DNA from: a virus
IMG/VR virus record: IMGVR_UViG_3300036814_000622
Coordinates: 1 to 43,565 of that record
Reading direction: 5' to 3' (one strand)
Length of the DNA: 43,565 bases
The notes under the pieces were generated by a model. It had not been told where the DNA came from. It was given only the letters and a program-made list of their open reading frames with translations, and did no database searches. Positions within the stretch are counted from its first letter, which is position 1. Each line of letters begins with the position of its first letter. The translations under genes were made by a program, and so were the position numbers. Of this stretch, positions 24,801 through 43,565 are shown one piece after another.

Positions 24801-27800
24801 ATATACTCTGGAACAAGCTATATAACCGGAGGGATTGTAACTGTCAGCGAGAGCATTAATGACATCAAAGTTACCATTTCTGATGACGCCACAGAAAGCC
24901 TGATACTCACGAACAGTACCAACTACGTGTCAGACTCCGTTGCGTACATAACTGGTTCTGCCACGATAACGGACGGCACAAACTACGTCACTGGCGACGG
25001 GTCGGTAGCCAACATCTACGCATACAGCGGAACAATCAATAACGTCCAGCCCGTAAATAGTACGGTTAACTTCTCTGGCGATATTGATCAGATGATCGTC
25101 CACAATAATTCCGGTGGAGTAGTAAACATTACTGGAGCGACGGATGTAGACTTCTACTCTATATCAGGCGAGTACAATATTTACGGATCAGACGTAGACA
25201 TAACAAACGCATCAGAGAAAATCGCTATATCTGGTGACTTCAACACTCTTAGCATTGACACGGGCATATTCGAGAATTTCACGGGGACAATAACTACACT
25301 TAACCAGTATACGGGATATATACAGACCCTAAATGCAAACCACGGATCAATAGGAACAATAAATCTCACCTCTGATCTGGATATAACCTCCCAAATAATA
25401 ACAGGATCAGGGCACACTGTTATTAATAGCTCCCACTCTGATATACATAACTTCAATGTGGATGACTCGACTATTTCAAACTTGTACTTTGAAACGGGCG
25501 TTATAAATATCACCAGCAGCGGAGTAAACGACTACACCACGATAGGGAATATCTACGCGAGCGGAAGTGGGCAGTTCGACATAGATTATTTCACGGGAAC
25601 ACTAAATTACAATTTCACCAATGATCAGACAGTAGGAAGTGTTTCTGCTTACGCTGCTAACTATCAGAGTTCTGCAAGCGCATCAAACACTAAAGGTTCA
25701 TACGACAATAACTCGCAAGCATTAACTATAGAACAGTTTACGGGAACCGCGACTATAGATATGTCGCAGACCTATTCGCAGGGCGCGACTACGAGTTCCG
25801 CAGGATATGCCTCGAACGCTAGTGTCGCCTCCCCAAATAACAGTCACAGCAACTCTCCTGTAGATGTATCAATAACTAACCACGGGGATATTAACCTCCA
25901 CGCCACCTATTATAACCAACAAAGTCAATCCTCCTCCGCTGGTGGTTATCTTTCCACGATTAACAATGGCCCAATGTTAACTGGGGTAAATTACAGTTTC
26001 GGAATAACAGGCGGTAATATCAATATAACAGGTTCTCAAGTATCGGGCCGTTTCGATAACACCACGGTAGGAATAACCGGAGGTACGACCCATATCGTAG
26101 GAAGACAAGAAAAGAATTCCTATACAAACCAAACTCAAGTTTATGTAGACGATTCGGATATTCTGATCACGGACTCGAACGTAACACTTTCTGGAACACA
26201 ACCAACGTTATACGTGTCAGGAGGGGAAAACAATATCCATGCGGACGGTTTCCACATGGATGTAAATGCCGACGTATACGCGGACAACGGATCAAACATA
26301 ATTCTGACCGGAACATTTACCGGACAGTCGATTAACATAATTTCCGGTACTACATTTAACATAAATTCTACGGGAATAATTGAGTCGATAATACTTTCTG
26401 GTGGGATCAATAATATTTCTGGCGACGAATTAGACATATACGCATCATACGTAACAAACGCAGCTTTCAACAACGCATCGGGGAGTCAGGCAACTAACTT
26501 GTACCTTACTGGCCAAACGCCGATAATAACAAACTTCATTAGTGGCAACCTCAACGCAACCGGAACAAACTGGGAAGCGATTAGAATCAGTGGGGGTACT
26601 AACACCTTCTATGTAGCAACCGGACAAAGCATTTCCATCACTGGTGGCAATAATACGGTAAACGGCGGTACGGCTACAATCATTGGCAACATTGATTCGT
26701 TAGTCTTAAAGGATAGCCGAAATTATGTCACTGGCCACAACATCACCATTGATGGTGGCACTAACTACGCAACTGGGGAATACGTATACATCTCTGGATC
26801 GAACAACTACATAACGAATTCTGTCATAGACGACCTGAATGCATACGGTGGCGTATTTCACCTCTCTGGTAATACCGGAATTCAAATAACGGGACAATTC
26901 TTCACTGTTAACATTTCGGGGTACGACAACTCAGTTGTAAACATCACGGGTAAAGATTGCGGTTTCCACATCACGGGAACAGCCAACTTCTGGGACGCTA
27001 GAGACACAATCAATGTTGCTCACAGTACAGTTCACTTCCACGACCACGCGACGGGAGTTTACATAACGGGAGGAAATAATACCTTATACCTGAGTGGCTC
27101 AGAGGCTTTCATTGATCAATCGTTCAGTGTCTCAAGTATTACTGATTCCGTAGTAACGAACTACAATAATCTAGCGAACACGATTTACAACGGTAGCCTC
27201 TATGTAACTGGTAATTCTTCCAGTAACAATATTTACCTAAACCATAGCACTGGCAACATCGATTTCAAGAGTGCTTCTGGGTACATAATCGCATCGGGCG
27301 GGATAAACACTTTCAATAACGCTTCGGGCGTTACAGTATTCGACTCTGATGTTCGTATAAACGATAGCGACATTACCATAACTGGTAACATTGGCCACGT
27401 AAGTATTACTGGGGGCACAAACACTGTCAGTGGCGTCAACATTGGAATAACTGGAGGTGGCGTACTTCTGGGGGTTCACGGGGGAGAAGAAACAGACGTA
27501 CTTATCTACGATAGTGATGTCACGATATCCGGTACTTCTTATATTTCGGGCCACACAATATCTGTGACAAACAGGGAAGAAGGTAACACCTATATCCAAA
27601 ATCACGATGATCAGATCAACGTCTACTACAACCCAGAAAATAATAGCGGGGCCAAATTAGATGTTACAACCAATTCAGGAAGTCACGTTAACATTTACCA
27701 ATTCAGGAACCTTGAGAAACATACAGGTTCGTTTGTCGATGTTAACAGGATTGGTTCTTTTGGAGAAATTTATCAAAACGACAATGAGTTTACCGCCACT

Positions 27801-29261
27801 GTAGGTACTAACTATGGTTATGGGTCTTATTCCGTTGGGGATATATCAGCGGATGTTAATTACAACAATACCGGGTCAACGATATTAGAAGGAAATAATC
27901 AATTTATAACCAATATCACTGGCGGGGAAGTGACGGTCCACTCTGGGCCATACGCGAATCTAAATCAGGGCGGTAACACCTCGAACGGTTCATCTACCGT
28001 AACCTACAATAACGACTTTACGTGGACAGGAAACCTGACCTCTACCACAACGATAGATAACAGCACAGTTACGCTAACTGGAAACTATTCTCCCAACATT
28101 CACTCTGGGTGTCAGAGTATAAATTATTTACTGAACGAGACTACGCTTACCCTAACTAACCCAACTGGGTTCATTAACGGTACGATTAACAGCCTGTTGT
28201 TCACCGGGGACCAACTAAACGTCACCGGAAAAGTTACCATCACGAATGGTTCCAACATAACCACCAATAATACCCACATTGGTCACTACACCGACAGCAC
28301 AGTATCGATTATTGATACGAATATTGGCAACGACATAAATATTTACGGCGGTCTTACTCAGGTCCACGGCACTAACCCAATTACCTTCAATTTTGTGACG
28401 GGCGACTTACATGCCAACACCGTCATTGATGTTGATGACCCAAGTCACATTTTAGTCCAAGGCGATATCGTTCAATTTAATACGGGCGAGAATGGAACAA
28501 CTGGTTTCATGAAAGCCATAGCTAACTCCAACACTGGGACTGAGAACGTTGTTGGATTGGTTGTAGAAATCAGTGGGGGAGGATTTAAGTACGTCACTCA
28601 TGGAGAAACACCTTGGGGTTCGGTCACAGGGTTTAACTATGGCAAACCAATTTACTTAAGTGATACAACGCATGGGTTAATGACGACTACCAAGCCCACG
28701 ACTGCTGGAAGTATCGTTAAAAGGATTGGCACAGCAGTTAACCGGAAGATTGTGGTAAACATCGGAGATGATTCCAATATGGTTCCATTCAATCCGACTA
28801 ACACTGGAGCCCAGTTGATTGTTCCTGAGTTCTTTGGAGCACCAGAAACATCAAATACTGACCACCACTATCATCAGTTCATTGGGGCAGCGACGATATT
28901 TACATCGAAAGAACTAGACCTCACGCAAACGGCTACTCACACGATACATATTGACCAAGGGCAAAGGTTCTTCTGCGATGAATTTGGATTGATTATAACA
29001 GATAGCTCGGTAAGCCCCGTCCTTCATGGACCAAGGTTCCAAATGGGGATAAGTGGAGACCTAACTAATATAAGCAATCAGTATATTGTCCCAGCTATAG
29101 ACAACTCAATTCTAGCCCATGAGAGAATCAGGCTGGGATCGCCTAATGACACAGTGGGTGTAAACAATATAATAACATCAATAACAAGCGGAGCAACAGC
29201 GGGAACACTACATGGTAAATTCTATTGGAAAGGATTCACGTTACAAGAAGAGGTGGAATAA
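15900..29261 (+). CDS. Giant 4453-aa LamG plus beta-solenoid fibre/adhesin
   Basis: This single open frame of 13.4 kb fills almost a third of the window. Residues 1-100 are short beta strands. About 110-340 is a LamG/concanavalin-type sandwich (LDLDATDLNS, GCYFRPNMH, YHYAVATWDGTNHNLYISG, FTGDIQSAHVYG). From about 345 to 4175 the chain is a continuous run of short degenerate units rich in Gly, Ser, Thr, Asn, Ile and Val, such as ISGGTNTITG, VTINDGTNYVTG and NIYSG. It has very few Cys or Lys, as expected for a long right-handed beta-solenoid. A subregion (about 1880-2400) has a different longer unit with SGTFITVSG and TTIYDYSN. From 4175 come two globular ends: GDIVQFNTGENG ... GKPIYLSDTTHGLMT ... 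GTAVNRKIVVNIGD, then a last 150 residues with HHYHQF. No signal peptide or anchor is seen. It is probably a long virion fibre; exact placement is unknown. Confidence 0.88.
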   Translation: MPSYNTILSGAVPGLSPVPKDVNITVSNELGSFTFGPFHIKGTGLLVEGDTNMYGSLYVHEDSATIDNGLTITSGDITVHKGDINIETGGFYLNGIPLEATITSGPRQSILKTGLALDLDATDLNSKKGILGGAPQNSWTDLTYKENDLVFSGQGIADASNLNTSPEYVLHQFRFNGTGDYGRVASSEDLEPQRLSYGCYFRPNMHEGSINANFIMGKLLSGSQVSYGLYYAQKEVLFSQLFFSDGTISQVHANEVKTGQYHYAVATWDGTNHNLYISGILASGDADQGSPHAGKTLRYDAQDFALGAHTGSQSSFTGDIQSAHVYGGVIPEYEIFTNYKALTEEVLHKNLHLSGDVFINGQNIYDLASGNTFNIDGGTNSITGMEIRSITITDSSAGGTYNISGYNIGQVHNITNINSPGTTTVNGEGNDTININVEDSTTNLTVHNEGVGSTVQFKNYYGSNVNSNISGYLFVVEPGSVNTLYNLNKAFIDDNSGHLTIANSGEVQISGNNIISIQGGNNVISGSISGQVIVSGGNNTIGLFNAIDVKFISGENTVINSGTCLITGGFINVYSGNNNITGYNINLTNSIGNFTDLNVPVNVETSTVTVNDSDLVNITGGPVSVYEGTGSIGIDDSNVTFITQSIGELHVSGHQIASGGHLTLNAESASAPFSGLNIFSGSIFNAESNNTISITGDVNISGGNNTIHQGNITGSGYDISNLVTISGGVNTIDLDAGYAADSNVVVWYGNNDIDSNGTMTVYITGSGIFNGTMSPTTANITAGPYVFFQDNAVLTSATVTSTTGIITIQSGAEINSLTMNGSNNVANITGNQIIYIDGSSTISNSTFLSTIFTGDNNTFNFNDEVGTAKIYDSTVAVNASSSTYNQFSGGPGSIWTLNNAGATNVNTNLYDSTGVVFNDSDNASVYDSDVTINDGTNQYFTGGNISIHTGNYADIYDSTVSVAAHGLYARVLGTTISGGTNYVYGTDTLVSGGVNLITGMHPSIRGGQNIVTALGSFNIYTGNVYIDNPKFSEITMASGVDTKIFNSGVVNIESGVENVFGGINIIEGSDIERLTGWHVQLFNSDVENQFTTMMFPMQSTGTTIISGDFTTGDGLTIETIRNYVTGDVIQIINGVNSIDFADYQQNTGSPILFTTSDYAESGAQQNYMSGVDLVSISGGSSNIFIYNANAHGNAPHQINIFSGNDITVDIADNSGTVTLSGTNFTINQGTNTVTGQTITVDGGTNYLMNEFSGEIHVSGGYNIIGASGIDLTISGGTNYITGRDFEIQYHNDVTVPSGANATFNTNTILNPNTVNITGGNSHTLIASGGTGFIGDVSIVSDTVIIYNPTLHPGELYLSGSSIEVHGGTENFKNSLISGNITVLSGTSTITAVTGGANIYDSIVTLDGGYNTLIVDSGGHISGINYGINTIHGNVPYILSGETHIVQTNASGATGSNIIYVTGQTNIYGSGTTHLTSCDVDIYGGINVLTGDNVVFQSGASARLELSTGTANVYNNDQVIITGHISTFNVHGNDLVNMTGHWISGQISVTGSGVLNITNESNIDSINTNTLSITNYSGANALNIVTVPSGSFSFSDIDTAVISGSNVFVTGNKIEIWGGTSYITGVVTGIVEAEEVTLHLISGSDVDIIGGINTVINSGIVNMGDRPSVIGGTFYHTGIVESIDRFANINAYNSNLHASSHNTINLYSGFASVTGVDGSQEIVNAYDGTVIIAMETGRDAVVTAYDSSQVFIRSGISGAFVVMRDDSQCNILSGNINNINQGSGWLNDINIKLSTNYIWSTGVTTQAGANVIYSDDVDIIHGYNYFYNFSGEAEISGYQNWWFDSTCHGISGYDNDFINGTNYVEVGTRHINDTFYTTVYETHYTQVARTGNFYTITHSTGNVITGTGDITIYDYSSRPYLDYSTTIGKTGTFIDVTGSGHTVTASGDVTINDYTVTSYYPDNDYFFYDKTGNTYYVTGNTVNLGGVTGDVESYVVTNNQNYSATVNMYGANATVTGSGQTTVYDYSKNDHEVNYNIIEKSGVFVDRSGTFDYSTNHVNIVEKSGTFDYSTNHVNIVEKSGVFVDRSGTFDYSTNYIIDKTGTYITIEGDNDGTITGEGDVTVYAGTFVEKSGTFITVSGDENVVTGSDVAGTSTTIYDYSNHYDQTETFNIGKSGTFITVSGNENVVTGSGLTTIYDYSNHYDQSVNVDITVSGDENIVTGSGVTTIYDYSNRYDQTQTFNIDRSGTFIDVSGTGNTVVGISGLASGASGVVTINDYTTHNTVSYDNRVLVDKTGTFITVSGSNITVTGSGQTTIHDYSTTLVDKSKTITIDLVSGYPTGIVFNTIGKSGTFLEGSGQTLIISGSNHTIWDYSQTTVYPDSTIIQLTSGFPTGVFREDWNYFHIDISGGTTSFSGVSGLINISGNSINHIHDAKDIDIYNPQGVTISGGFNQFTGTNVWIYDSEDYFQVLEGGVANLSESTASIGNSGVIYVTSTAEGATVINNTGFVGVTGFVTILSGNTTHVSGSEVTIHDGYNIISGNEEVNIYSGEVVITDGDLINITNPSSQITIEECDFVDIDATGAGVNLVAYNSNIDITSGTTHISGANPVTITGGLNNLTGCTVTIYSGLHNEIHDSTAFITGHIIHVSGGTSTITGHDVTINDGTNVVSVSGGITNLLNGTNTVEVDTINSVTGGLNTFHIYESGNVHIHSGVDTNIYATGNDSTRIDFHFSGTHNTDPTTNIYNTVTDSGNSDIHITQYITGANSSYAQLGIQNLNITGGNVSFTGQAYAASHEYPAVTSISNSTITSTSQFVDEITTQDANSVWNIDGPVIEAGAILSGEIHHSANGNVNAVYGVNTLTNSVSSPISATTTFDGNYVADGGHLGITGSGINIYSGITIQNIITGDGPFATGEFNITQGVNTLNAAGSTFVSADRVDNAYITGATMTLHYYSGSSGQNFITGSTVSIYSGTSYITGGIVTVSESINDIKVTISDDATESLILTNSTNYVSDSVAYITGSATITDGTNYVTGDGSVANIYAYSGTINNVQPVNSTVNFSGDIDQMIVHNNSGGVVNITGATDVDFYSISGEYNIYGSDVDITNASEKIAISGDFNTLSIDTGIFENFTGTITTLNQYTGYIQTLNANHGSIGTINLTSDLDITSQIITGSGHTVINSSHSDIHNFNVDDSTISNLYFETGVINITSSGVNDYTTIGNIYASGSGQFDIDYFTGTLNYNFTNDQTVGSVSAYAANYQSSASASNTKGSYDNNSQALTIEQFTGTATIDMSQTYSQGATTSSAGYASNASVASPNNSHSNSPVDVSITNHGDINLHATYYNQQSQSSSAGGYLSTINNGPMLTGVNYSFGITGGNINITGSQVSGRFDNTTVGITGGTTHIVGRQEKNSYTNQTQVYVDDSDILITDSNVTLSGTQPTLYVSGGENNIHADGFHMDVNADVYADNGSNIILTGTFTGQSINIISGTTFNINSTGIIESIILSGGINNISGDELDIYASYVTNAAFNNASGSQATNLYLTGQTPIITNFISGNLNATGTNWEAIRISGGTNTFYVATGQSISITGGNNTVNGGTATIIGNIDSLVLKDSRNYVTGHNITIDGGTNYATGEYVYISGSNNYITNSVIDDLNAYGGVFHLSGNTGIQITGQFFTVNISGYDNSVVNITGKDCGFHITGTANFWDARDTINVAHSTVHFHDHATGVYITGGNNTLYLSGSEAFIDQSFSVSSITDSVVTNYNNLANTIYNGSLYVTGNSSSNNIYLNHSTGNIDFKSASGYIIASGGINTFNNASGVTVFDSDVRINDSDITITGNIGHVSITGGTNTVSGVNIGITGGGVLLGVHGGEETDVLIYDSDVTISGTSYISGHTISVTNREEGNTYIQNHDDQINVYYNPENNSGAKLDVTTNSGSHVNIYQFRNLEKHTGSFVDVNRIGSFGEIYQNDNEFTATVGTNYGYGSYSVGDISADVNYNNTGSTILEGNNQFITNITGGEVTVHSGPYANLNQGGNTSNGSSTVTYNNDFTWTGNLTSTTTIDNSTVTLTGNYSPNIHSGCQSINYLLNETTLTLTNPTGFINGTINSLLFTGDQLNVTGKVTITNGSNITTNNTHIGHYTDSTVSIIDTNIGNDINIYGGLTQVHGTNPITFNFVTGDLHANTVIDVDDPSHILVQGDIVQFNTGENGTTGFMKAIANSNTGTENVVGLVVEISGGGFKYVTHGETPWGSVTGFNYGKPIYLSDTTHGLMTTTKPTTAGSIVKRIGTAVNRKIVVNIGDDSNMVPFNPTNTGAQLIVPEFFGAPETSNTDHHYHQFIGAATIFTSKELDLTQTATHTIHIDQGQRFFCDEFGLIITDSSVSPVLHGPRFQMGISGDLTNISNQYIVPAIDNSILAHERIRLGSPNDTVGVNNIITSITSGATAGTLHGKFYWKGFTLQEEVE
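22050..22139 (+). repeat. 42-bp direct repeat, two identical copies, in the giant fibre gene
   Basis: The 42-base string at 22050-22091 recurs exactly at 22098-22139, a 48-nt period that keeps the frame (16-residue unit around YSTNHVNIVEKSG). A diverged partial third copy follows near 22165. In the rest of the gene the units are similar in protein but not in DNA, so this looks like a recent slippage or recombination duplication. Confidence 0.9.
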
Positions 29262-33879: not shown

Positions 33880-34284
33880 TGGTGGAGGCGAGGGGAATCG
33901 AACCCCTGTCTTTAAAACCATCTGCTAAGATATACTACAAGCATAGTCAGTGTTAATTTTCGTGCTTCATCACTGACAACTACACACGAGGTTGGAGGCA
34001 CTTTATTTATACTAGACACCTCACCCTTCCTAGTTTTTTTGCTCGTTATCGACGCCCTAGCTCCTTAACGAGCATCCAGAGTAGGACGGGTAGCTTACGC
34101 AGCTACAGCAGCTTCTTCAGCCCAACCAAACTTAGCGAGAATCGCATCAGCTTCGTCAAGTGAAGGAGCCATATCAACATTGTTATTGGCAGTTGAATTG
34201 CCTTGATAGTTTTTTAAAGAGGCCAACCATCATCCTCTGCTTGCAATCTTGCGTAAGGTCCCAAATCGAAACCAGTACGCCCCC
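33880..34284 (-). ncRNA. ssrA: Transfer-messenger RNA (tmRNA), one-piece type
   Basis: The 405-nt RNA rescues stalled ribosomes by acting first as tRNA-Ala-like acceptor and then as mRNA. The 5' end GGGGGCG (34284-34278) pairs with CGCCUCC before an encoded 3' ACCA (ending at 33880), giving seven pairs with one G-U. The conserved UACUGGUUUCGAU follows the 5' stem. The T-arm AGGGG-TTCGATT-CCCCT is perfect. PK1 is visible: GAGG/CCUC, and GAUGGUU with AACUAUC. The tag frame lies at 34190-34095. The gene is convergent with the collagen gene (22 nt away) and starts 15 nt after the stop of the last protein gene of the minus-strand operon, so it is probably cut out of that transcript by RNase P and 3' nucleases. 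No smpB gene is in the window, so host SmpB is presumably used. Confidence 0.96.
34095..34190 (-). other. tmRNA proteolysis-tag reading frame, 31 codons
   Basis: Reading from a GCC resume codon at 34190-34188 gives ANNNVDMAPSL, then DEADAILAKFGW, and ends AEEAAVAA followed by TAA at 34097-34095. The AVAA ending is a typical ClpXP/ClpAP degron. At 31 residues it is about three times the usual 8-12 residues, and has an acidic, helix-prone middle. The resume codon is inferred from the ANN start and position after PK1. Confidence 0.85.
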
Positions 34285-35051: not shown

Positions 35052-36230
35052 TCAACCAACCTTTTCCAGTATCGAAAAGTATTCTAAGTCCACCCAGAAA
35101 TCATCACTATCAGTAACTGGATGAATTGCTGTAAATCCCTCGGTAGGGTTTCCTGCTTTTAGGTCAGCCCAACTCAAGAAGACTTTGCCCTCGCTTAGGG
35201 TGAACTTGTTCGACTTATAAAATAACTTTTTTATATCTCTCCCGCTCAACTCCTCTATGTCCGATTGCTTCTTGATTGGCTTTTCGTTGATGATAGCGTT
35301 GCAATCCATGTAGTTGATTTTCGCGTCACTCAAATCTTTACCTTTAAGAGTAGAAAGCATGATGTGCCTTATGTTCAACTCCTGAATGTCTAACACAAAT
35401 TGAGGGTGGTTAACTTTTTCAATGATATAAATGACCTCTTTAATCCTAGACCTAAATTGAGTCAGTATTTTTTTGCTGATTGGCTTGTCTGTTATGATCG
35501 ATACTGGGCAAACTTGCATTTGGCTAACTAAGTTCTCCTCATTGTAGTCATAGTCCATTCTCACTATCAGGGAATCTACTCCCAAGGAGGAAACATCCAC
35601 CACTGAATTTGGAATAGATTCTATTAGTCTTCTTCCAAAAGTGGGTCCCAAATATATCGTTTCATATGGAAAGTCGAAGTCTATACCTAGAAGCGAGCAA
35701 ACTGAACTGGCTATTTTTTCTGGCTTAATAGTGTTTATTGTTTTCGGGGATTCCTCTGTGGAAAACGAAGGCTTGTTGCCCTTTAGGTCGGGCATAAACA
35801 AAACATGATTTTCTGAGTCACCCCAGTAAGGCTTAGTGCAAGCAAGGTGATTCGAACTATAGAGGCAAACTATTTTCTTATCGTAAGCAGAGGCGACATG
35901 AGTAGGGAAACTATCGACACCAAGATGCAAAAGACCCCCTTTGATCAAATACGCTATTTGATTCATGTTTGTCTGACCAGCGGTGTATCCAGCACCAACT
36001 ATTTTCGGCTCATCTTTCGCTCCTATCTGGATTAGTCTAATGTTTTCCTTCTCTAATACGGGAAGCAATAAGTTCACCACCTCCTGCCAGTAGTCATAAC
36101 TCTTTGCTGGCTTTGTAAAAGGGTGCAGGGTTATGTACTTCTCCACGTTGAGTGGGAAAAACTTCTCGTACATATACGGTCTATCGATTTTTAGACCGCA
36201 GTTAGTGGCGTATGCTTCAACTAGGTGCAT
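35052..36230 (-). CDS. C-terminal half of GT9 (heptosyltransferase-like) enzyme plus unknown domain
   Basis: The 392-residue product begins in the middle of a GT9 fold. Its first 170 residues carry only the donor-binding half: KYITLHPFTKPAKSYDYW, NIRLIQIGAKDEPKI, AYLIKGGLLHLGVDSFPTHVASAYDKKIVCLYSS. The N-terminal half of the same fold is at the end of the preceding gene. Residues 180-392 are a second domain of unknown type (YETIYLGPTFGRRLIESIPNS ...; WADLKAGNPTEGFTAIHP near the end). The ATG lies within the upstream gene, 14 nt overlap, in the +1 frame. Either the two halves assemble as separate coupled subunits, or a +1 shift makes a fusion, or an indel has split the gene. GT9 enzymes move heptose or similar sugars onto lipopolysaccharide-type acceptors; here the acceptor is unknown. 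Confidence 0.82.
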   Translation of the reverse strand: MHLVEAYATNCGLKIDRPYMYEKFFPLNVEKYITLHPFTKPAKSYDYWQEVVNLLLPVLEKENIRLIQIGAKDEPKIVGAGYTAGQTNMNQIAYLIKGGLLHLGVDSFPTHVASAYDKKIVCLYSSNHLACTKPYWGDSENHVLFMPDLKGNKPSFSTEESPKTINTIKPEKIASSVCSLLGIDFDFPYETIYLGPTFGRRLIESIPNSVVDVSSLGVDSLIVRMDYDYNEENLVSQMQVCPVSIITDKPISKKILTQFRSRIKEVIYIIEKVNHPQFVLDIQELNIRHIMLSTLKGKDLSDAKINYMDCNAIINEKPIKKQSDIEELSGRDIKKLFYKSNKFTLSEGKVFLSWADLKAGNPTEGFTAIHPVTDSDDFWVDLEYFSILEKVG

Positions 36231-38172
36231 TTTCGTATTTTAAGTCTTTGTAAACTACCTCATCCTTGCCGTTGTGCATGTACGTCAAAAATCTTTGAGT
36301 TACTGCGTAAGGCAAGAAAGCTATTTCAAAATAACCCTTATGGTCACCTTTGCCTTCTAACCAAGTGATATTGTCCATTTGGGGTGTGTAGTTGATTCTT
36401 TTGTGAATGTGTTCGTTGCACAATAGTGCTTCGGAGAATTCAGGTTTACATGCCACATATAAATTGTAGTCTGGGTAAGTCTCCTTAATGGATTTAAATA
36501 GGCTGGTTGATAGAAAAATATCACCAATGCTTTCTGGCATTACGTAAAGTATCCTTTTCCCTTCGTCGTTTTTATCTAGCAAGTCAGAAAAGTCAACTTT
36601 CTGAACGTTGCTCTTCTGGTTCTCATCCATTGCCACTTTTCTAAAATACTGCTCGATGTCCTTCCTAGACATCCCCTTTTCCATTTCTTTCATCCAGTAC
36701 TTGTGGCCGTCATTCTTATCGTCAACGTCTCTCATCTTCAGGATGTTGTGGTACATCCATAGTAGCCATTCGGAATCGTCATCCATTACTGGTACGTTTA
36801 CATTCGGGTCTTTTTGTTCAACTTCGGGCTCTTTCTCAAAATCAAAATCAACAGGCTCACAGCTATCAAAAAAATCTTCAAGCTTCTTGCCGACAGCCTC
36901 TACAGCGTAGTTCTCAATTGTCCACTTTCTGGCCTTCAGCCCTGCATCGGCACGTTGCTTAGGCTTCATCCTGTACACTTTAGTAAGCTGTTTGCAGATT
37001 GAAGCTGGTGAAGTTTGAGCTTTCTTGAACTGAGTGCCGTGCTCTCTATACACAGTAAAGTCTAGAGCAAGTGACTCCGCACCCTTCTCGCACATTTCTT
37101 CCCCGCAGCTATAATTAGTAACAAGCGTTATTAGTTCGGTGAGCTTTGCTTCCTGAATAGGTATCTCTTGCCCTCCGCTAGTAAATGGGTGCGCGTATAC
37201 GTCCATTAAGTTGTATACTTCGTTTAGCTGCTTCTCGCTCACTCCCTCTGTCGTGTTTGTCGTAACAAGGCCATTCTCGTTATTGCAAACGGGACATCGT
37301 TTATCTTGGCCAACAAAGTTCCTGACAAAGTAAGATTTGCAACCTCGACAAACATAAGTCGTTAGTATTTCGCTCATGTCTACGCCATACTCGGAAGCAA
37401 GCTTGGGAATGTCCCATCCTTCAGAAAAGTGAGTATGTAAAAGCAATTTTGATTTGCCTTTGGTCTCTGGGCATCTTTCCTTGAACTTTTGGAAGCCCTC
37501 TAATAAGGAGTAGATAGTTTTTCTAAGTTGATTCCGAAACACGAACCCAACAATAAAATCATCTTTATCAATCCCATGAGCCTCTCTCAATTTTTTCTTT
37601 TCAGTGTTACCTATGTTAAAGAACCATTTAGTGTCAACCGCTCCATGTAGAGTTTTAACGTGCTTGTGCCCAAGTTCATGTAGGGCCTTCGTAGCAAAGT
37701 CGCTCCATATCCAATAGTTCTTTATCTTAGGTGCTTTATCTACTGCTGTAGGTAGTATTGGAAGTGAGTCAAGGGTAGTCCAGATAGCTGAGCTTATCTT
37801 GTTGAACCAGTTTTTATCTATGGAATAATCTACTCCCCAAATATCTTGGATACCAAGGTATACATCTGGTTTTTCCTCCTTAATCACCTTGTCCATCATA
37901 TGCGCCCCGTATCCAGCCATTCTTGCTACTGCTGGGTCTTGCTGTAGCATTTGAAGTTCGGCTTGATTGTCTGGCAAGCAACCTATTGACCTCCAAGGTG
38001 TTTTCTTGAGTGCTGGGGCTGAGTATTGAGTGCCTATGCAGTAGTGAACGATATCGTACTTACCTGTCTTAAATAAATACATCAATAAGGCTCTAGCGTT
38101 CCTGCCGAAACCTGTCTTAGCCATACTTGAATCAGTATGGATAAAGACTTTCAGTTTTTTCTTATCGCTCAC
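36217..38172 (-). CDS. Glycosyltransferase, GT4-like domain with zinc ribbon insert, fused to N-half of GT9
   Basis: The 651-residue protein starts at a GTG (38172), two nt after the previous stop, with AGGGGG about 12 nt upstream. Residues 6-430 are a GT-B glycosyltransferase of the GT4/GT1 type: KVFIHTDSSMAKTGFGRNARALLMYL, WSDFATKALHELGHKHV, NLMDVYAHPFTSGGQEIPIQEAKL. Inserted between the strands is a CxxC...CxxC zinc ribbon (C275, C278, C293, C296). A charged linker (430-535) leads to residues 539-651, the N-terminal half of a GT9 enzyme: GKRILYVMPESIGDIFLSTSLFKSIKETYPDYNLYVACKPEF. The GT9 fold is completed by the next ORF. It probably glycosylates a virion or host-surface component; the sugar may be supplied by the epimerase two genes upstream. 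Substrates are unknown. Confidence 0.85.
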   Translation of the reverse strand: MSDKKKLKVFIHTDSSMAKTGFGRNARALLMYLFKTGKYDIVHYCIGTQYSAPALKKTPWRSIGCLPDNQAELQMLQQDPAVARMAGYGAHMMDKVIKEEKPDVYLGIQDIWGVDYSIDKNWFNKISSAIWTTLDSLPILPTAVDKAPKIKNYWIWSDFATKALHELGHKHVKTLHGAVDTKWFFNIGNTEKKKLREAHGIDKDDFIVGFVFRNQLRKTIYSLLEGFQKFKERCPETKGKSKLLLHTHFSEGWDIPKLASEYGVDMSEILTTYVCRGCKSYFVRNFVGQDKRCPVCNNENGLVTTNTTEGVSEKQLNEVYNLMDVYAHPFTSGGQEIPIQEAKLTELITLVTNYSCGEEMCEKGAESLALDFTVYREHGTQFKKAQTSPASICKQLTKVYRMKPKQRADAGLKARKWTIENYAVEAVGKKLEDFFDSCEPVDFDFEKEPEVEQKDPNVNVPVMDDDSEWLLWMYHNILKMRDVDDKNDGHKYWMKEMEKGMSRKDIEQYFRKVAMDENQKSNVQKVDFSDLLDKNDEGKRILYVMPESIGDIFLSTSLFKSIKETYPDYNLYVACKPEFSEALLCNEHIHKRINYTPQMDNITWLEGKGDHKGYFEIAFLPYAVTQRFLTYMHNGKDEVVYKDLKYENAPS

Positions 38173-38174
38173 CT

Positions 38175-38735
38175 TTATACTACTCCCCCTTGGTCAACAC
38201 TGTATCCATCGGGCATTTTGTATTCCTTAGGCTTAATATATTCCTTTACGGTTTCGAGTAGGAAATTTTCCATCTCAAACTTAAGCAGTCTCCCTTCGGA
38301 AAAGTCGAATCCAATTCTGAAGAAATGTTTTTCGGGCTTAGATTTAACTACGGACAAAGAGAAGCCAGCTTGGTCTCCGACCTCTTCCCATTTTCCGGTT
38401 TTTTCGTTCTTCTTTGATTTCCGGTATGGCCCGAAGTGAATCGAAGACTCTTTACCGTTGAAGGTATGAAAGGCATCCCATTTTCTGTTCGTCTCTAAGC
38501 AGTCAACGATACCAGCTACTTCAACTCGATTAAGTTTAATTGTTACGGCATTTTGTTCGCCGTCTGCCATGATTCCGTTTTGTTTTTTGCTAGTATGGAA
38601 CTTTCCCCTCGATATTTTTGCGTCCCAAGATTTTTGCTTAACCATTGATAGCATTACGCCCTGTTTATCTTGAGCTAGTGAGAACGAACAAGCCGTGCCT
38701 TTGTTTTTCGGGGTGGGTTTATAAAACTGAACCAT
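38175..38735 (-). CDS. Hypothetical protein, 186 aa
   Basis: I do not recognise this gene. The protein opens VQFYKPTPKNKGTACSFSLAQ and is a beta-rich, basic chain (MVKQKSWDAKISRGKFHTSKKQ; VTIKLNRVEVAGIVDCLE; HFGPYRKSKK) ending in a helix (ENFLLETVKEYIKPKEY). The pattern of strands with lysines and an acidic-aromatic tail is like that of some small phage ssDNA-binding proteins, but no diagnostic motif is present. A strong AGGAG, 8 nt before the ATG, gives it a firm start. It overlaps the epimerase by 17 nt and precedes the glycosyltransferase by 2 nt. It could act in replication with the polymerase genes of the same operon or in sugar metabolism; neither is supported beyond position. Confidence 0.7.
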   Translation of the reverse strand: MVQFYKPTPKNKGTACSFSLAQDKQGVMLSMVKQKSWDAKISRGKFHTSKKQNGIMADGEQNAVTIKLNRVEVAGIVDCLETNRKWDAFHTFNGKESSIHFGPYRKSKKNEKTGKWEEVGDQAGFSLSVVKSKPEKHFFRIGFDFSEGRLLKFEMENFLLETVKEYIKPKEYKMPDGYSVDQGGVV

Positions 38736-39636
38736 TTTTTTTCTCCTGTATGTATGTTTCTAAATTCTTCTGAGGCTCGTAGCCAAACATTTCTTTAGAT
38801 TTAGTCAAATCAGCCAATGTATGCTTAGCCTCTCCCTTTCTATCTTCTATATGCTCGACATCTCCCCCTATCATACCAGCTATCTCTAATATTGTATAAC
38901 TTTTTCCGGTCCCGACATTAAAGACTTGGCCAAAAGCCCCGCTGTTTTGAGTCGTGGATGCAAGTATGTTCGCGTTAACGACATCAGAAACGTGAGTAAA
39001 ATCTCTAGATTGCGTACCGTCTCCCACTATTGTCATTGGCTTACCTTCTTCCTTAAGCCTAAGAAACAGCCCGATTACTGGAGCGTAATGGCCCTTTCTA
39101 GGCTCCCTATTACCATATACGTTAAAGTACCTTAAGATGACAGTCTCGACCCCGTAAATATGATAATACACCTTACATAAGTCTTCCCCTGCTGCTTTAG
39201 AAACCGAGTACGGATTAAGGCAATCCTTTACCATGTTTTCGCGCAGAGGAGGAGTGTTTTTGCACCCGTACGATGAAGACGTAGATGAATACACGAACCT
39301 CTCAACGTTGTACTCTCTGCAAGCCTGAAGAACGTTGCATGTACCAACGAAGTTTACATTACATGCCAATTGAGGCGCGTCTATTGTCGGTTGTATTCGT
39401 GCCTCTGCTGCTAGATGTAGAATAACGTCTGGCTCCTCATGCCTGAAGACCCACTTTAAAGCATCGTAATCGCAAATATCAATCGGGTAATTTTTAGAGT
39501 GTTCATTCCAGTAGAATTTCGAATTACTTTCTGCGGATTCATTGTCTACGCATACCGCCTGATGACCTTTTTCGATGATAGCATCGACTAGGTTACTCCC
39601 TATGAACCCAGCACCTCCGGTGACAAGATATTTCAT
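38719..39636 (-). CDS. NAD-dependent nucleotide-sugar epimerase/dehydratase (extended SDR)
   Basis: This is a 305-residue extended short-chain dehydrogenase. The N-terminal Rossmann motif GGAGFIGS is at 7-14, an acidic residue D31 follows the second strand (NAD rather than NADP), and the catalytic pair is Y143 and K147 in NPYSVSKAAGE, with the STSSSYG segment (118-124) supplying the Ser/Thr. Downstream, ILRYFNVYGNREPRKGHYAPVIGLFL and VGDGTQSRDFTHVSDVVNANILA are typical of UDP-glucose 4-epimerase, UDP-glucuronate 4-epimerase/decarboxylase and GDP-sugar enzymes. All catalytic residues are intact and the length is normal. It overlaps the polymerase stop by one base (TAATG). It probably supplies an activated sugar for the glycosyltransferases that follow. 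The exact substrate cannot be read from sequence. Confidence 0.92.
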   Translation of the reverse strand: MKYLVTGGAGFIGSNLVDAIIEKGHQAVCVDNESAESNSKFYWNEHSKNYPIDICDYDALKWVFRHEEPDVILHLAAEARIQPTIDAPQLACNVNFVGTCNVLQACREYNVERFVYSSTSSSYGCKNTPPLRENMVKDCLNPYSVSKAAGEDLCKVYYHIYGVETVILRYFNVYGNREPRKGHYAPVIGLFLRLKEEGKPMTIVGDGTQSRDFTHVSDVVNANILASTTQNSGAFGQVFNVGTGKSYTILEIAGMIGGDVEHIEDRKGEAKHTLADLTKSKEMFGYEPQKNLETYIQEKKNGSVL

Positions 39637-42311
39637 TATATTTTGTTTCCTTCTATTTCTAGAATCATGGAATCTATCTCTGCATCAGAAGTATTTTTGA
39701 TGTCATTAGGTATTTGGGAAAGCTTTGTATACACGCTCTGATCTTCTATGCCTATTACGTTAGCAAAAATAGCGTCTTCTTTTTTCACTCCCCTCACTAT
39801 CACGATGTTTCCCTTAGAGGGAAGCTTGCCACCGTTAATCTCCTCGCAGCTTCCCATCTGTCTTTCAAACATAAGGACAGTTACAACCCCAGTGTTATCC
39901 TGAACTTGAAGTCTTAAATATTGGTTCCCTTTCTTCGAGATTCCTTTGAAGTGCTCCAAGACAGTCCCGATAAAACAAACGTTGAAATCCACAGGCAAGT
40001 CTCTAATGGTCCTCAATTCTTCAAGCTTCGGTTGTTTGTTTATGAAAATTTCTCTTAGCGTTACGTCGTGGGTATATCCCAAGTAGGTTCTCTCGTAATA
40101 CCAATTTGCGAATTTTTCATTCTTACTGTTCTGCTTGTATATTTTTAGGTACGGGGTGTACTTCCTTCTGATCGTGTTCCTTCTTGACTCCTTAATCACA
40201 ACCTTATTATTTTCGTCTTTGAAGGTCGTCAACTTCCTGAGTATAGATGGGAGGTCGTAATCGTTTTCTTTGCCCATCGCAGCAACGAACCTTTTCTCTC
40301 TCGTGGTTAAGATTTTCCATAGCTGAGCCTCAAGAACCACCTGACTTCTGGATTGCTTGAATCCCTCTAATGCCCCAGCCTGTATTAACGAGGAAAGAAT
40401 TCCTATTGGTATTTTCGCCTCTTCTGCTGCTTCGAAAATTTCAAATTTGTTAGAATATTTATTCTTAAAATTCACTATCTTTTCGATGGATTTGTCTGAT
40501 ATCCCCTTAACAGACAACAGCCCAAAACGAATATTATCTTCCTCGATTGAGAAGTTCAGTTCGGATTTAACCAAGTGTGGAGGTAATAGCTCTACGTTAA
40601 AGTCATATAGTTCTTTATGAATTTTTGAAATTTCAGCTATGGGGTCCGGTTCGAACCTAGTCATTTTCAAAAGAGCCAAGAAAAACTCCTTTGGATATTT
40701 GAACTTCAAGAAAATGGTCATCGCGGAGAGGGTTGCGTAAGCAAGAGAGTGCGACTTATTAAATGAGTAGTTGGCCGAGTCCTCTAGTACTTTCCAAAGA
40801 ATTTTACCAATTTTAGGATCGAGATTATTCTGAATTACCTTGTCTTTAATTTTCTTCTTCCACTTCCTGACCTCTGAGACTTTTTTCTTACCGACGATTC
40901 GTCTCAGCATTTCAGCTTCATCAAGGCTGAACCCAATCTTGTGAGCCATCTGCATCATCTGTTCTTGGTACAGACAAACTCCTCCTGTCGTTAACAAGAT
41001 GTCATCGAAGAAGGGGTGAATTACATCGTAGGTTCCATTGTTCGTATAATTGGCGTACTGATCGACAAAAGCTAATGCTCCGGGGCGAGCAAGAGCCAGA
41101 ACAGCAGAAAGCTCTTCAACGTTTTTGGGCTTAACCTTCTGGCAAACCCTAAAGTTGGTGTCTGCCTCTATTTGAAATAACCCGTGAGGCGTTCTTAAGT
41201 CATATAGATTTTGATATATGATGGGATCGGATACATCAATGTCGTCCATCTTGATTCCGACCATACTGCATACGTCATCTACAACAGTGACGCTCCTAAG
41301 ACCAAGCAAATCCAACTTAACATTAAGTAAAGATGCCCAGTTCATGTCGAACCCAGATACTATGCTTTTATCAGAGGTCAATTCCACTGGGCAGGATAGC
41401 TCTAGTTCGCCATGAGACAGTAGCATACCTGAAGCATGTACGCCCTTGTTACGAATAAGACCCCTAAGCTTTAACGAGATATCGTAAACGTCTTTATTCT
41501 CATCGCACCATTCCCTTAATTCTTCAACTTCGTCATAAGCTACGCTCAAGTCTTGGACTTGGCCATATACTTTAGGGATTAGATTAGAGATTTGATTCAT
41601 CTCGGTCTCGTTTTTCCCAGCTATTGTTTTCCCACAGTCTTTAATTAAAATTTTGCCACTAAGAGTAGATAGGGTTAAAATCTTTGAAGTCTTGCCTACG
41701 AATTCTTTCTCAAGAAATTCTATTACTTTAGCTCTTTTGTAATAGCAAATATCGAGATCAACATCACACATCAAAGAACCATCTAAGTACGTAACTCCAT
41801 CCACTTCTTTTTTCTTCGCTCGTATTTTAGAGACGAACCTCTCAAAAAATAATCCGTACTTAACTGAATCTATCTTCGTAACGCCTATCAAAAACAGAAC
41901 TAAACTTCCCGCTGCGCTTCCCCTGCCCGGTCCAGTTGGTATCCCCTCTTTTTCGCAAAAATTAATGACTTTCCAAACTAGAAGTACGTAATCAATGAAC
42001 CCAAGTTCTTCTAAGGTTTTGAGTTCTCTATTGGCTCTATCCCCGTAGCTCTTAAATTCTTCAGAGTCTTTCTTGAGGCCCAATTTGCGAAAACCTTGTC
42101 GGCATAAAGCCTTTAGAAAATCTAGGTTAGTACAATCCTCGTCTACCTTCGCGTAGTGTTTTTCTGAATTTTGGATTTCAAAAGTCGGAAGTCTAACACC
42201 ATGCAAATTGAGATCGTAGTCAACTATGTTAGAAAAGAAACTGCTGACCGTCATCTTCGTCTCTATCTGTTTTTTTTCTTTTCTTTTTCTCGTAGAAGTG
42301 CTCGATGTCAT
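39636..42311 (-). CDS. dnaE: DNA polymerase III alpha catalytic core (C-family), lacking the PHP domain
   Basis: The 891-residue protein has the C-family polymerase palm, fingers and later domains: GIPTGPGRGSAAGSLV at about 123-138, the catalytic CDVDLDICYYKR at about 182-193 (usual PDxDxDF), LNVKLDLLGLRSVT carrying the third Asp, ILLTTGGVCLYQEQMM, VGKKKVSEVRKWKKK and FNKSHSLAYATLSAMT. A helix-hairpin-helix region (about 565-650) and an OB fold (about 765-860: GNQYLRLQVQDNTGVVTVLMFE) follow. Bacterial DnaE begins with about 270 residues of PHP domain; here the protein starts just before the junction LPTFEIQNSEKHY, and that part is missing. GGAGG 7 nt before ATG 42311 supports this start, which overlaps the 91-aa gene by 83 nt; ATG 42254 is the alternative. 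It replicates the phage DNA. Confidence 0.93.
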   Translation of the reverse strand: MTSSTSTRKRKEKKQIETKMTVSSFFSNIVDYDLNLHGVRLPTFEIQNSEKHYAKVDEDCTNLDFLKALCRQGFRKLGLKKDSEEFKSYGDRANRELKTLEELGFIDYVLLVWKVINFCEKEGIPTGPGRGSAAGSLVLFLIGVTKIDSVKYGLFFERFVSKIRAKKKEVDGVTYLDGSLMCDVDLDICYYKRAKVIEFLEKEFVGKTSKILTLSTLSGKILIKDCGKTIAGKNETEMNQISNLIPKVYGQVQDLSVAYDEVEELREWCDENKDVYDISLKLRGLIRNKGVHASGMLLSHGELELSCPVELTSDKSIVSGFDMNWASLLNVKLDLLGLRSVTVVDDVCSMVGIKMDDIDVSDPIIYQNLYDLRTPHGLFQIEADTNFRVCQKVKPKNVEELSAVLALARPGALAFVDQYANYTNNGTYDVIHPFFDDILLTTGGVCLYQEQMMQMAHKIGFSLDEAEMLRRIVGKKKVSEVRKWKKKIKDKVIQNNLDPKIGKILWKVLEDSANYSFNKSHSLAYATLSAMTIFLKFKYPKEFFLALLKMTRFEPDPIAEISKIHKELYDFNVELLPPHLVKSELNFSIEEDNIRFGLLSVKGISDKSIEKIVNFKNKYSNKFEIFEAAEEAKIPIGILSSLIQAGALEGFKQSRSQVVLEAQLWKILTTREKRFVAAMGKENDYDLPSILRKLTTFKDENNKVVIKESRRNTIRRKYTPYLKIYKQNSKNEKFANWYYERTYLGYTHDVTLREIFINKQPKLEELRTIRDLPVDFNVCFIGTVLEHFKGISKKGNQYLRLQVQDNTGVVTVLMFERQMGSCEEINGGKLPSKGNIVIVRGVKKEDAIFANVIGIEDQSVYTKLSQIPNDIKNTSDAEIDSMILEIEGNKI

Positions 42312-42504
42312 CGCTTTCCTCCATTTCTTTTGCTATTGTTGTGAAGACTGATTGCATGGAACGCAACGTATCGTCGTCCTTAATATCAAAAAACAAATCA
42401 GCCTTATCCTCCTCGAAACCTTTTCTTACGGTAACGACAAAGTAGCTTATATTATCTTTCGATAACTTTTCAGCAAAGTCAAAAACATGATCTAATGAGG
42501 CCAT
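42229..42504 (-). CDS. Small 91-aa protein ending in a clamp-binding-like motif
   Basis: This small gene lies between the exonuclease and the polymerase core. The protein begins MASLDHVFDFAEKLSKDNISYFVVTVRKG, has an alpha/beta middle, a very charged stretch (HFYEKKKRKKTDRDEDDG) and ends QQFLF. The last five residues fit the QxxLF pattern of beta-clamp-binding peptides (consensus QLSLF), placed at the C-terminus as in several clamp-binding polymerases. I do not recognise the family. A weak AGAAG lies before the ATG. The final 83 nt overlap the start of the polymerase gene in another frame, and the polymerase ribosome site (GGAGG) lies inside this gene. It may be a polymerase accessory factor linking the core to the clamp; that is inference. 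Confidence 0.72.
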   Translation of the reverse strand: MASLDHVFDFAEKLSKDNISYFVVTVRKGFEEDKADLFFDIKDDDTLRSMQSVFTTIAKEMEESDDIEHFYEKKKRKKTDRDEDDGQQFLF

Positions 42505-42527
42505 CTTCTAAATATACAGAGATCACT

Positions 42528-43166
42528 CTAAATCTCAATCATATACTTAAGCTGGTTCCAGACCTTTAAGTTTAATTGTAAATCTACGATTGCATCATGA
42601 AGGTTCTCGTAGTCATGCTGAATCCCAAATTGTTCGCCAAGGGCCTTAAGAGTGTTTCTCATCCCCTTTTTCCTCTTGTTAGACATTCTGTACTGATAGG
42701 CCAGCAAATCTTCTGATTTTTTATACGGAAGCTCCATCTTCACTCCTCTAGCGAGGGAGAGAGTGTCTATTACTTTCGGGGCTAAGTGGTCATGGCTTTT
42801 CCCCATCATCCTATACATTTCTATAATAAGATGGAGATCAAAATTCAGGACATTATGGCCTACAATATGGTCGGCTTCGTCTAACCATTTTTCTATCGTG
42901 GGGAAAATTTCACTTATGTGAATCGCAAGTTTATTGTACTTAGTTTGACTAAACCCAGTGATTCTAGCAGCCTCTTTGCTTACGTTGATTTCCCTGTCCC
43001 ATTTAACGTAAAAGTCTTTGCTGTCTATTGCTTCGTTTCCCTTCGCTTTAATCATTCCTACTTGCCAAGGAAGGTTTTTGCAGAAACTAAGACACAGATT
43101 TTCCGTCTCCAAGTCAATGAACACAAAGGTTTTCTCTTTATCAAATCTCAATAAGTCTTCGTTCAT
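42528..43166 (-). CDS. DnaQ-like DEDDh 3'-5' exonuclease (proofreading)
   Basis: The start ATG 43166 (212 aa) is chosen because AGGAGG lies 5 nt upstream; a TTG 78 nt earlier opens the same frame but would overlap the preceding gene with no ribosome site. All five DEDDh residues are seen: D18 and E20 in FVFIDLETENL, D110 in HNVLNFDLHLI, then H190 and D195 in HDAIVDLQLN. Length and pattern match the epsilon proofreading subunit and the exonuclease domain of PolC. It starts one base after the stop of the PHP-like gene and precedes the 91-aa and polymerase genes, so it is likely the proofreader of the phage replicase. Confidence 0.92.
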   Translation of the reverse strand: MNEDLLRFDKEKTFVFIDLETENLCLSFCKNLPWQVGMIKAKGNEAIDSKDFYVKWDREINVSKEAARITGFSQTKYNKLAIHISEIFPTIEKWLDEADHIVGHNVLNFDLHLIIEMYRMMGKSHDHLAPKVIDTLSLARGVKMELPYKKSEDLLAYQYRMSNKRKKGMRNTLKALGEQFGIQHDYENLHDAIVDLQLNLKVWNQLKYMIEI

Positions 43167-43167
43167 A

Positions 43168-43565
43168 TTACCTCCTATTTTTTTCCTTCCAGCTTTCCAC
43201 ACAGAACTCAGTTGAGGACATGTGGTCAAGTCTCGGTCTCTCAAGAGAACTTCTGTTATGTATACATCTAAAAGTTAAATATGCCTTAAAGTCTTCTCTC
43301 TTATGGTAGTAAATGCTTTTTGTATCTAAGGTCGAATACCCTTCGGCGTTCGCGTATGAGACTACAGACTTCTTTACTAGGCTGTCAAACGGCAAGTCGT
43401 TATCCTCTATGAAAAAGATAGGGTTTTTATCGGACAAATTAGGAAGGGCCATGCTGCCCTGCATCAGATTCCTGTATATGAAGGAGTCGTAGAACGGGAA
43501 GGCTATAATTAATGAATCATCAACGAACTCGTTAAGATAATTAAAGTCAATTCTTGGCCTATAAT
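43168..43565 (-). CDS. PHP-domain part of DNA polymerase III alpha as a separate gene, 5' end cut by window edge
   Basis: The frame is open to the right edge (131 visible residues beginning YRPRIDFNYLNEF) and stops at 43168. The visible segment reads like the second half of the DnaE PHP domain: DDSLIIAFPFYDSF, then FDSLVKKSVVSYANAEGYSTLDTKSIYYHKREDFKAYLTFRCIHNRSSLERPR, paralleling the DnaE helix, the ATNDVHYL..ED strand and the HD.L.CI helix, and finishing SSTEFCVESWKEKNRR, where DnaE reads DEFYLKSPEEM. It ends precisely where the separate polymerase core begins. The metal-ligand Asp/His of NDVHY read S and Y here, so the site may be inactive. No in-frame start can be placed inside the window with confidence. 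The assignment is by eye, from this segment and from gene order. Confidence 0.72.
   Translation of the reverse strand, partial: YRPRIDFNYLNEFVDDSLIIAFPFYDSFIYRNLMQGSMALPNLSDKNPIFFIEDNDLPFDSLVKKSVVSYANAEGYSTLDTKSIYYHKREDFKAYLTFRCIHNRSSLERPRLDHMSSTEFCVESWKEKNRR

Follow-up and report, generated by a model that had tools for sequence, protein, structure and literature searches.

The right edge of the IMG/VR virus record IMGVR_UViG_3300036814_000622 raises the question of whether a phage can divide its replicative DNA polymerase among several genes and encode the proofreading exonuclease between the pieces. The record was analysed at its full length of 43,565 nucleotides (hereafter the window; 43.6 kb), and since lambda-J-like tail genes are present in it, the window comes from a tailed phage. 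In transcription order on the minus strand, an open reading frame (ORF) at the right edge (the edge ORF, 43168-43563) is followed by an exonuclease gene, a 91-codon gene and a polymerase core. The original prediction, made from the letters of the window, had read the edge ORF as the C-terminal half of a DnaE PHP domain, had seen the replicase as divided where PHP meets the palm, the proofreader gene lying in between, and had likened the layout to PolC. The first two points were borne out by the analysis below, and the third was not. We consider it likely that the locus encodes a DnaE-type phage replicase built from separate PHP, exonuclease and core chains, in which the PHP protein docks as a scaffold and the exonuclease proofreads in trans.

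Identity of the PHP protein and layout of the genes

The edge ORF matched columns 155-292 of PHROG 405 (DNA polymerase, 1190 columns) with an expectation value (E) of 0.005, which is weak alone. The core matched columns 298-1092 of the same family (E=1e-157), and as the two matches abut, the edge ORF and the core are consecutive parts of one protein family. The assignment of the edge ORF was made secure by its relatives: in 33 of the first 35, a separate gene was found whose C-terminal ~130 residues matched it (34-57% identity, E 1e-25 to 1e-50), and the complete or near-complete proteins among them (loci L029, L003, L036 and L034) matched the Pfam PHP domain (PF02811) with E values of 2e-8 to 3e-15. 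The family to which the edge ORF belongs is therefore not an unrelated one. Complete orthologs have a length of ~230-270 amino acids (aa). A profile of the family matched residues 49-253 of the Taq DNA polymerase III (Pol III) alpha subunit, DnaE, with E=2e-11, and its match to PolC was weaker. The AlphaFold2 model of the L029 protein was obtained with a pLDDT (predicted local distance difference test) of 90 and a pTM (predicted template modelling score) of 0.88. When this model was searched against the PDB with Foldseek, all 20 matches under E=0.001 were C-family polymerases (best 4iqj_C, E=2.8e-11, template modelling score 0.77), and neither free-standing PHP phosphatases nor PolX appeared among these 20. 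This confirmed that the edge ORF encodes the C-terminal half of a free-standing PHP protein with a Pol III alpha type fold. The PHP gene of L034 (4012-5367) carries an additional C-terminal domain of ~190 aa, matching PHROG 18407 of unknown function.

The features of the locus are as follows; the positions and strand of the four ORFs agree with those of the original prediction.

43168..43563, minus strand: gene of the PHP subunit, truncated on its 5' side where the contig ends, so that just its last 131 codons are present; no metal ligands (profile match, relatives)
43171..43176, minus strand: AGGAGG, the two Arg codons ahead of the PHP stop, which probably also serve as ribosome-binding site for the exonuclease (sequence)
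43168-43170, minus strand: stop codon of the PHP gene, 1 base ahead of the exonuclease ATG (sequence)
42528..43166, minus strand: gene of a 212-aa 3'-5' exonuclease of DEDDh type with catalytic residues D18, E20, D110, H190 and D195 (Pfam, PHROG, alignment)
42229..42504, minus strand: gene of a small 91-aa protein between exonuclease and core (homologs in relatives)
39636..42311, minus strand: 891-aa polymerase core of the C family, PHP domain absent; GRGSAAGS in the palm at 129-136, D183, D185 and D334 (Pfam, PHROG, alignment)
41301..42119, minus strand: palm/catalytic domain of the core, DNA_pol3_alpha PF07733 (Pfam)
40824..41288, minus strand: finger domain of the core, PF17657 (Pfam)
40341..40595, minus strand: helix-hairpin-helix (HHH) domain of the core, PF14579 (Pfam)

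The exonuclease most likely starts at the ATG at 43166 rather than at the TTG at 43244, because AGGAGG resembles a ribosome-binding site for it and 1 base separates the PHP stop codon from this ATG. When the edge ORF and the exonuclease were used as queries, only relatives at 45-57% identity and no contig extending the window rightwards were returned; the N-terminus of the window's own PHP protein falls beyond the contig end.

The polymerase core, the exonuclease and their relatives

Palm, finger and HHH domains were recognised in the core by Pfam, and no PHP domain was found in the same scan. Its D183, D185, D334 and GRGS motif were invariant in the alignment of relatives. An OB-like part appears to lie C-terminal to the HHH domain, which is the DnaE order: residues 763-818 aligned weakly to Taq alpha 1029-1085, and a beta-rich segment was seen at 777-856 of the predicted model, the Pfam OB match alone being below the cut-off. 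The AlphaFold2 model of the core (pLDDT 84.6) matched 7pu7_A, 4iqj and 2hpi; it resembles Pol III alpha of M. tuberculosis, Thermus and E. coli, and PolC more weakly. Judged by its alignments and predicted fold, the core is a C-family polymerase of DnaE type which starts where the PHP domain ends. The exonuclease matched Pfam RNase_T (E=4e-18), and its DEDDh set was invariant in 16 aligned sequences.

According to the literature (PMC3666897), one polypeptide carries the PHP, palm, thumb and fingers of a C-family polymerase. To see how the genes are arranged in relatives, as the original prediction had proposed, pattern scans of IMG/VR and one scan of GTDB genomes were carried out, and 221 loci with a core of this clade were collected. 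All three genes were held by 211 of them (~110 lineages when clustered at roughly 93% identity), and the remaining loci were apparently cut by contig ends. In 211/211 loci the genes shared one strand and were arranged as PHP-exonuclease-core, and PHP was a separate gene in every one, so that the single-polypeptide description does not hold for this clade. No PHP-core fusion was found in these 211 loci, and a deep scan for fused clade members yielded none among the recovered loci. The gap between PHP and exonuclease was at most 10 bp, or the genes overlapped, in 65 of 110 lineages; the same was true of exonuclease and core in 72 of 110. Each of 20 contigs of 68-203 kb contained exactly one PF07733 core and one PF02811 PHP; therefore no full-length polymerase, which might have undermined the prediction, is hidden in their sequenced part. 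Among the cultured phages of INPHARED, no record matched the exonuclease; the PHP matches were ~22-28% identical, and the polymerases examined were fused, save the splits of cluster EF, phiT1 and EF1 discussed below.

The window ends inside the PHP gene, which could point to an assembly or sequencing artefact or to a decaying gene in a defective phage. This explanation was refuted by the recurrence of the arrangement across the ~110 lineages and by the selection on the PHP gene, and we give it practically no weight. The medians of the pairwise ratio of nonsynonymous to synonymous substitution rates (dN/dS) were 0.043 for PHP, 0.022 for the exonuclease and 0.028 for the core; with a value near 0.04, the PHP gene is under purifying selection and is not a remnant.

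We also considered whether the pieces are rejoined, either in the protein, by trans-splicing through a split intein of the kind known from cyanobacterial DnaE, or in the RNA, by splicing that skips the exonuclease gene. Inteins do divide certain cyanobacterial polymerases (PMC3919608), and homing-type endonuclease genes stand between PHP and exonuclease in a few loci. However, most PHP proteins stop within ~ten residues of the domain and the cores start a few tens of residues ahead of the palm, so that intein halves would not fit. The searches matched no intein or intron family, every gene is equipped with a start and a stop of its own, and the conserved intervening gene is the exonuclease. 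Such rejoining is therefore very improbable. The endonuclease genes in question are of HNH type in L029 (3662-5128) and GIY-YIG-like (T5orf172) in L019 (4492-5118); they are possibly relics of the agent of the splitting, or later invaders. The core ORF was interrupted in L186 (4995-8042, near GRGSAAGS), L129 (5974-8958, near profile position 504-573) and L024 (6001-8599, near residue 145), by either insertion elements or frameshifts. Rfam gave no intron in the window or in these three loci.

Homologs of the small 91-aa protein, with a length of 66-105 aa, were found between exonuclease and core in ~25 of 110 lineages. The window's own copy ends in QQFLF, resembling a sliding-clamp-binding motif; a clamp-binding role was rejected, as the motif is kept by no listed homolog and the 20 large contigs yielded no beta clamp gene (PF02768). 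A DnaB-type helicase domain was present in 20/20 of these contigs.

Elsewhere in the window, a phage-encoded transfer-messenger RNA gene was found at 33880-34284 on the minus strand (Rfam RF00023, 141.7 bits; ARAGORN tag ANNNVDMAPSLDEADAILAKFGWAEEAAVAA). At 10352-33857, large ORFs form a block on the plus strand; one of them alone (15900-29261) has 4453 codons, and two others, of 1037 and 801 aa, had no PHROG match. Downstream of the core on the minus strand, the gene at 36217-38172 reads by eye like a glycosyltransferase and that at 38719-39636 like an NAD-dependent sugar epimerase.

The lost metal site and the proposed assembly

In an unrooted tree of 56 cores, the 42 split cores were placed on one side of a branch with a Shimodaira-Hasegawa-like approximate likelihood ratio test (SH-aLRT) support of 100, and the grouping persisted after more fused phage polymerases were added. 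The tree is read most economically as the outcome of a single splitting event, basal to this phage clade.

The metal ligands of PHP were lost in all 170 sequences checked. In E. coli numbering, H12 was replaced by Lys (158 of 170), D19 by Arg/Lys (169), E69 by Arg/Lys (168), H83 by Lys (168), D201 by Ser/Thr (170) and H203 by Tyr/Phe (151); three ligand positions are less certain, two of them falling in alignment gaps and His44 being maybe shifted by one. The active ligand set was retained in several fused relatives and in the PHP of phage Crestdrop. Because the replacements are themselves conserved and mostly basic, the former metal pocket looks remodelled and not left to drift. The best reading of these substitutions is that the PHP subunit is catalytically dead. 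Barros et al. (PMC3666897) reported that the loss of PHP ligands accompanies the presence of a separate exonuclease, and that Pol III of E. coli is still stabilised by its inactive PHP; the predicted phage replicase fits the former rule.

These observations raise the possibility that PHP was released from the polymerase for another job, such as binding nucleic acid or phosphate through its basic pocket, and that the core works without it. The change of the metal site to mostly conserved Lys/Arg in nearly all of the 170 sequences is like a gained function, and several genes can separate the PHP gene from the core. On the other hand, the gene order was kept throughout the survey and the loci without a PHP gene appear to be cut by contig ends, the fold matched polymerase PHP domains only, and every C-family polymerase is said to contain PHP as an integrated part of its structure (PMC3666897). 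We regard such a release as unlikely.

In the assembly that we favour, one gene cluster, which would be co-transcribed, would give rise to a dead PHP subunit of ~250 aa, a DEDDh exonuclease and a palm-thumb-finger-HHH-OB core as separate polypeptides. The PHP subunit would attach non-covalently to the core, at the place which it occupies within an ordinary Pol III alpha. Once docked, it would stabilise the polymerase and would probably help to hold the exonuclease, which in turn would proofread in trans. Three points weigh against this assembly. The exonuclease ends 17 residues past its last catalytic Asp and has no epsilon-type PHP-binding C-terminal tail; therefore its docking would have to differ from that in E. 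coli and use another surface. The three genes are separated in some loci by unrelated ones, including endonucleases, a glycosyltransferase and a carbamoyltransferase (gaps up to 2.3 and 4.4 kb), so that tight linkage is not obligatory. The structure predictions are of single natural chains, and the complex of PHP, core and exonuclease is one that we infer. As a more tentative extension, about which we remain doubtful, the free PHP may have evolved into a dedicated adaptor whose basic pocket grips an acidic or phosphate ligand (on the exonuclease, the core or the DNA backbone), giving an exchangeable proofreading module with the small protein as an optional fourth part.

Relation to known replicases and significance

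The closest counterpart was found in the Microbacterium phages of cluster EF (AnnaSerena, Crestdrop), where DnaE is likewise split at the PHP/core junction into two adjacent genes. In Crestdrop, gene 56 (350 aa) corresponds to E. coli alpha 1-269 and gene 57 (766 aa) to 318-882, and ~36 Microbacterium phage records gave hits. For cluster EF, two genes related to Pol III alpha, typically one gene, have been described (PMC7302621). Unlike in the present clade, the PHP metal ligands of cluster EF are intact, no exonuclease lies between its two genes, and its core groups with fused actinophage polymerases as sister of Troll4. As the cluster EF core falls in a different part of the tree, its split is an independent one.

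The E. coli Pol III core (alpha-epsilon) shares with the phage locus a dead PHP, the DnaE-type domain order and a separate DEDDh exonuclease subunit. Its dnaQ and dnaE genes are not in one cluster; PHP is a covalent part of alpha, and epsilon has the PHP-binding C-terminal segment which the phage exonuclease lacks. PolC of low-GC Gram-positives is similar in that PHP, exonuclease and core act together and that the exonuclease sequence precedes that of the core. In PolC, however, one polypeptide holds all of them; the exonuclease interrupts the PHP domain, and the OB domain stands on the N-terminal side of PHP (PMC3919608). The view of the locus as a gene-level version of PolC had to be abandoned: the core and PHP are nearer the DnaE type, the OB-like part is C-terminal, and the exonuclease follows the whole PHP gene. 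The analogy is only formal, because the phage parts are DnaE-like in sequence and fold.

In Pseudomonas phage 14-1 and Escherichia phage ECML-117, the polymerase gene is immediately preceded by one for a DEDDh exonuclease, which belongs to PHROG 192 like that of the window; the weakly recognisable PHP of these polymerases is still fused to the core. Rossellomorea phage phiT1 and Enterococcus phage EF1 also have DnaE in two genes, in EF1 with an HNH homing endonuclease between them, but the breaks are inside the polymerase core (in the palm in EF1) and not at the PHP junction. In Xanthomonas phage XacN1 (L249, 17137-17685), a 182-aa ORF covers no more than a short stretch of the Pol III alpha palm and two neighbouring ORFs had no polymerase match, which suggests that DnaE of this jumbo phage is more fragmented. 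Chains divided into reassembling subunits are further known from Aeh1 NrdA, T4 topoisomerase gene 60 and gene 43 of Aeromonas phages 25 and 44RR; the split Aeh1 NrdA has been described as functional, and reassembling split enzymes are known in T4-like phages (PMC2988022). These splits differ in that they concern other families, involve homing endonucleases or untranslated inserts, and belong to single phages, not being described as clade-wide. A paper on the YerA41 polymerase, considered as a precedent, has no bearing on the PHP/core split. In the literature outside most subscription journals, cluster EF was the only precedent found for the junction split; new here is a whole clade with a PHP subunit read as dead and a proofreader encoded between PHP and core.

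PHP has been described as universal though often inactivated (PMC12926913), and the reason for its retention in C-family replicases after the loss of catalysis has so far been probed by point mutations that destabilise one large chain. In the present clade, a detached PHP without a metal site has been kept through a whole phage radiation. As PHP is naturally separate here, its role can be tested by adding or omitting a subunit, and the link between PHP and exonuclease is open to study in a system without the epsilon tail. Finally, two independent phage lineages break DnaE at the same place, which argues that the PHP/palm junction is a natural seam.
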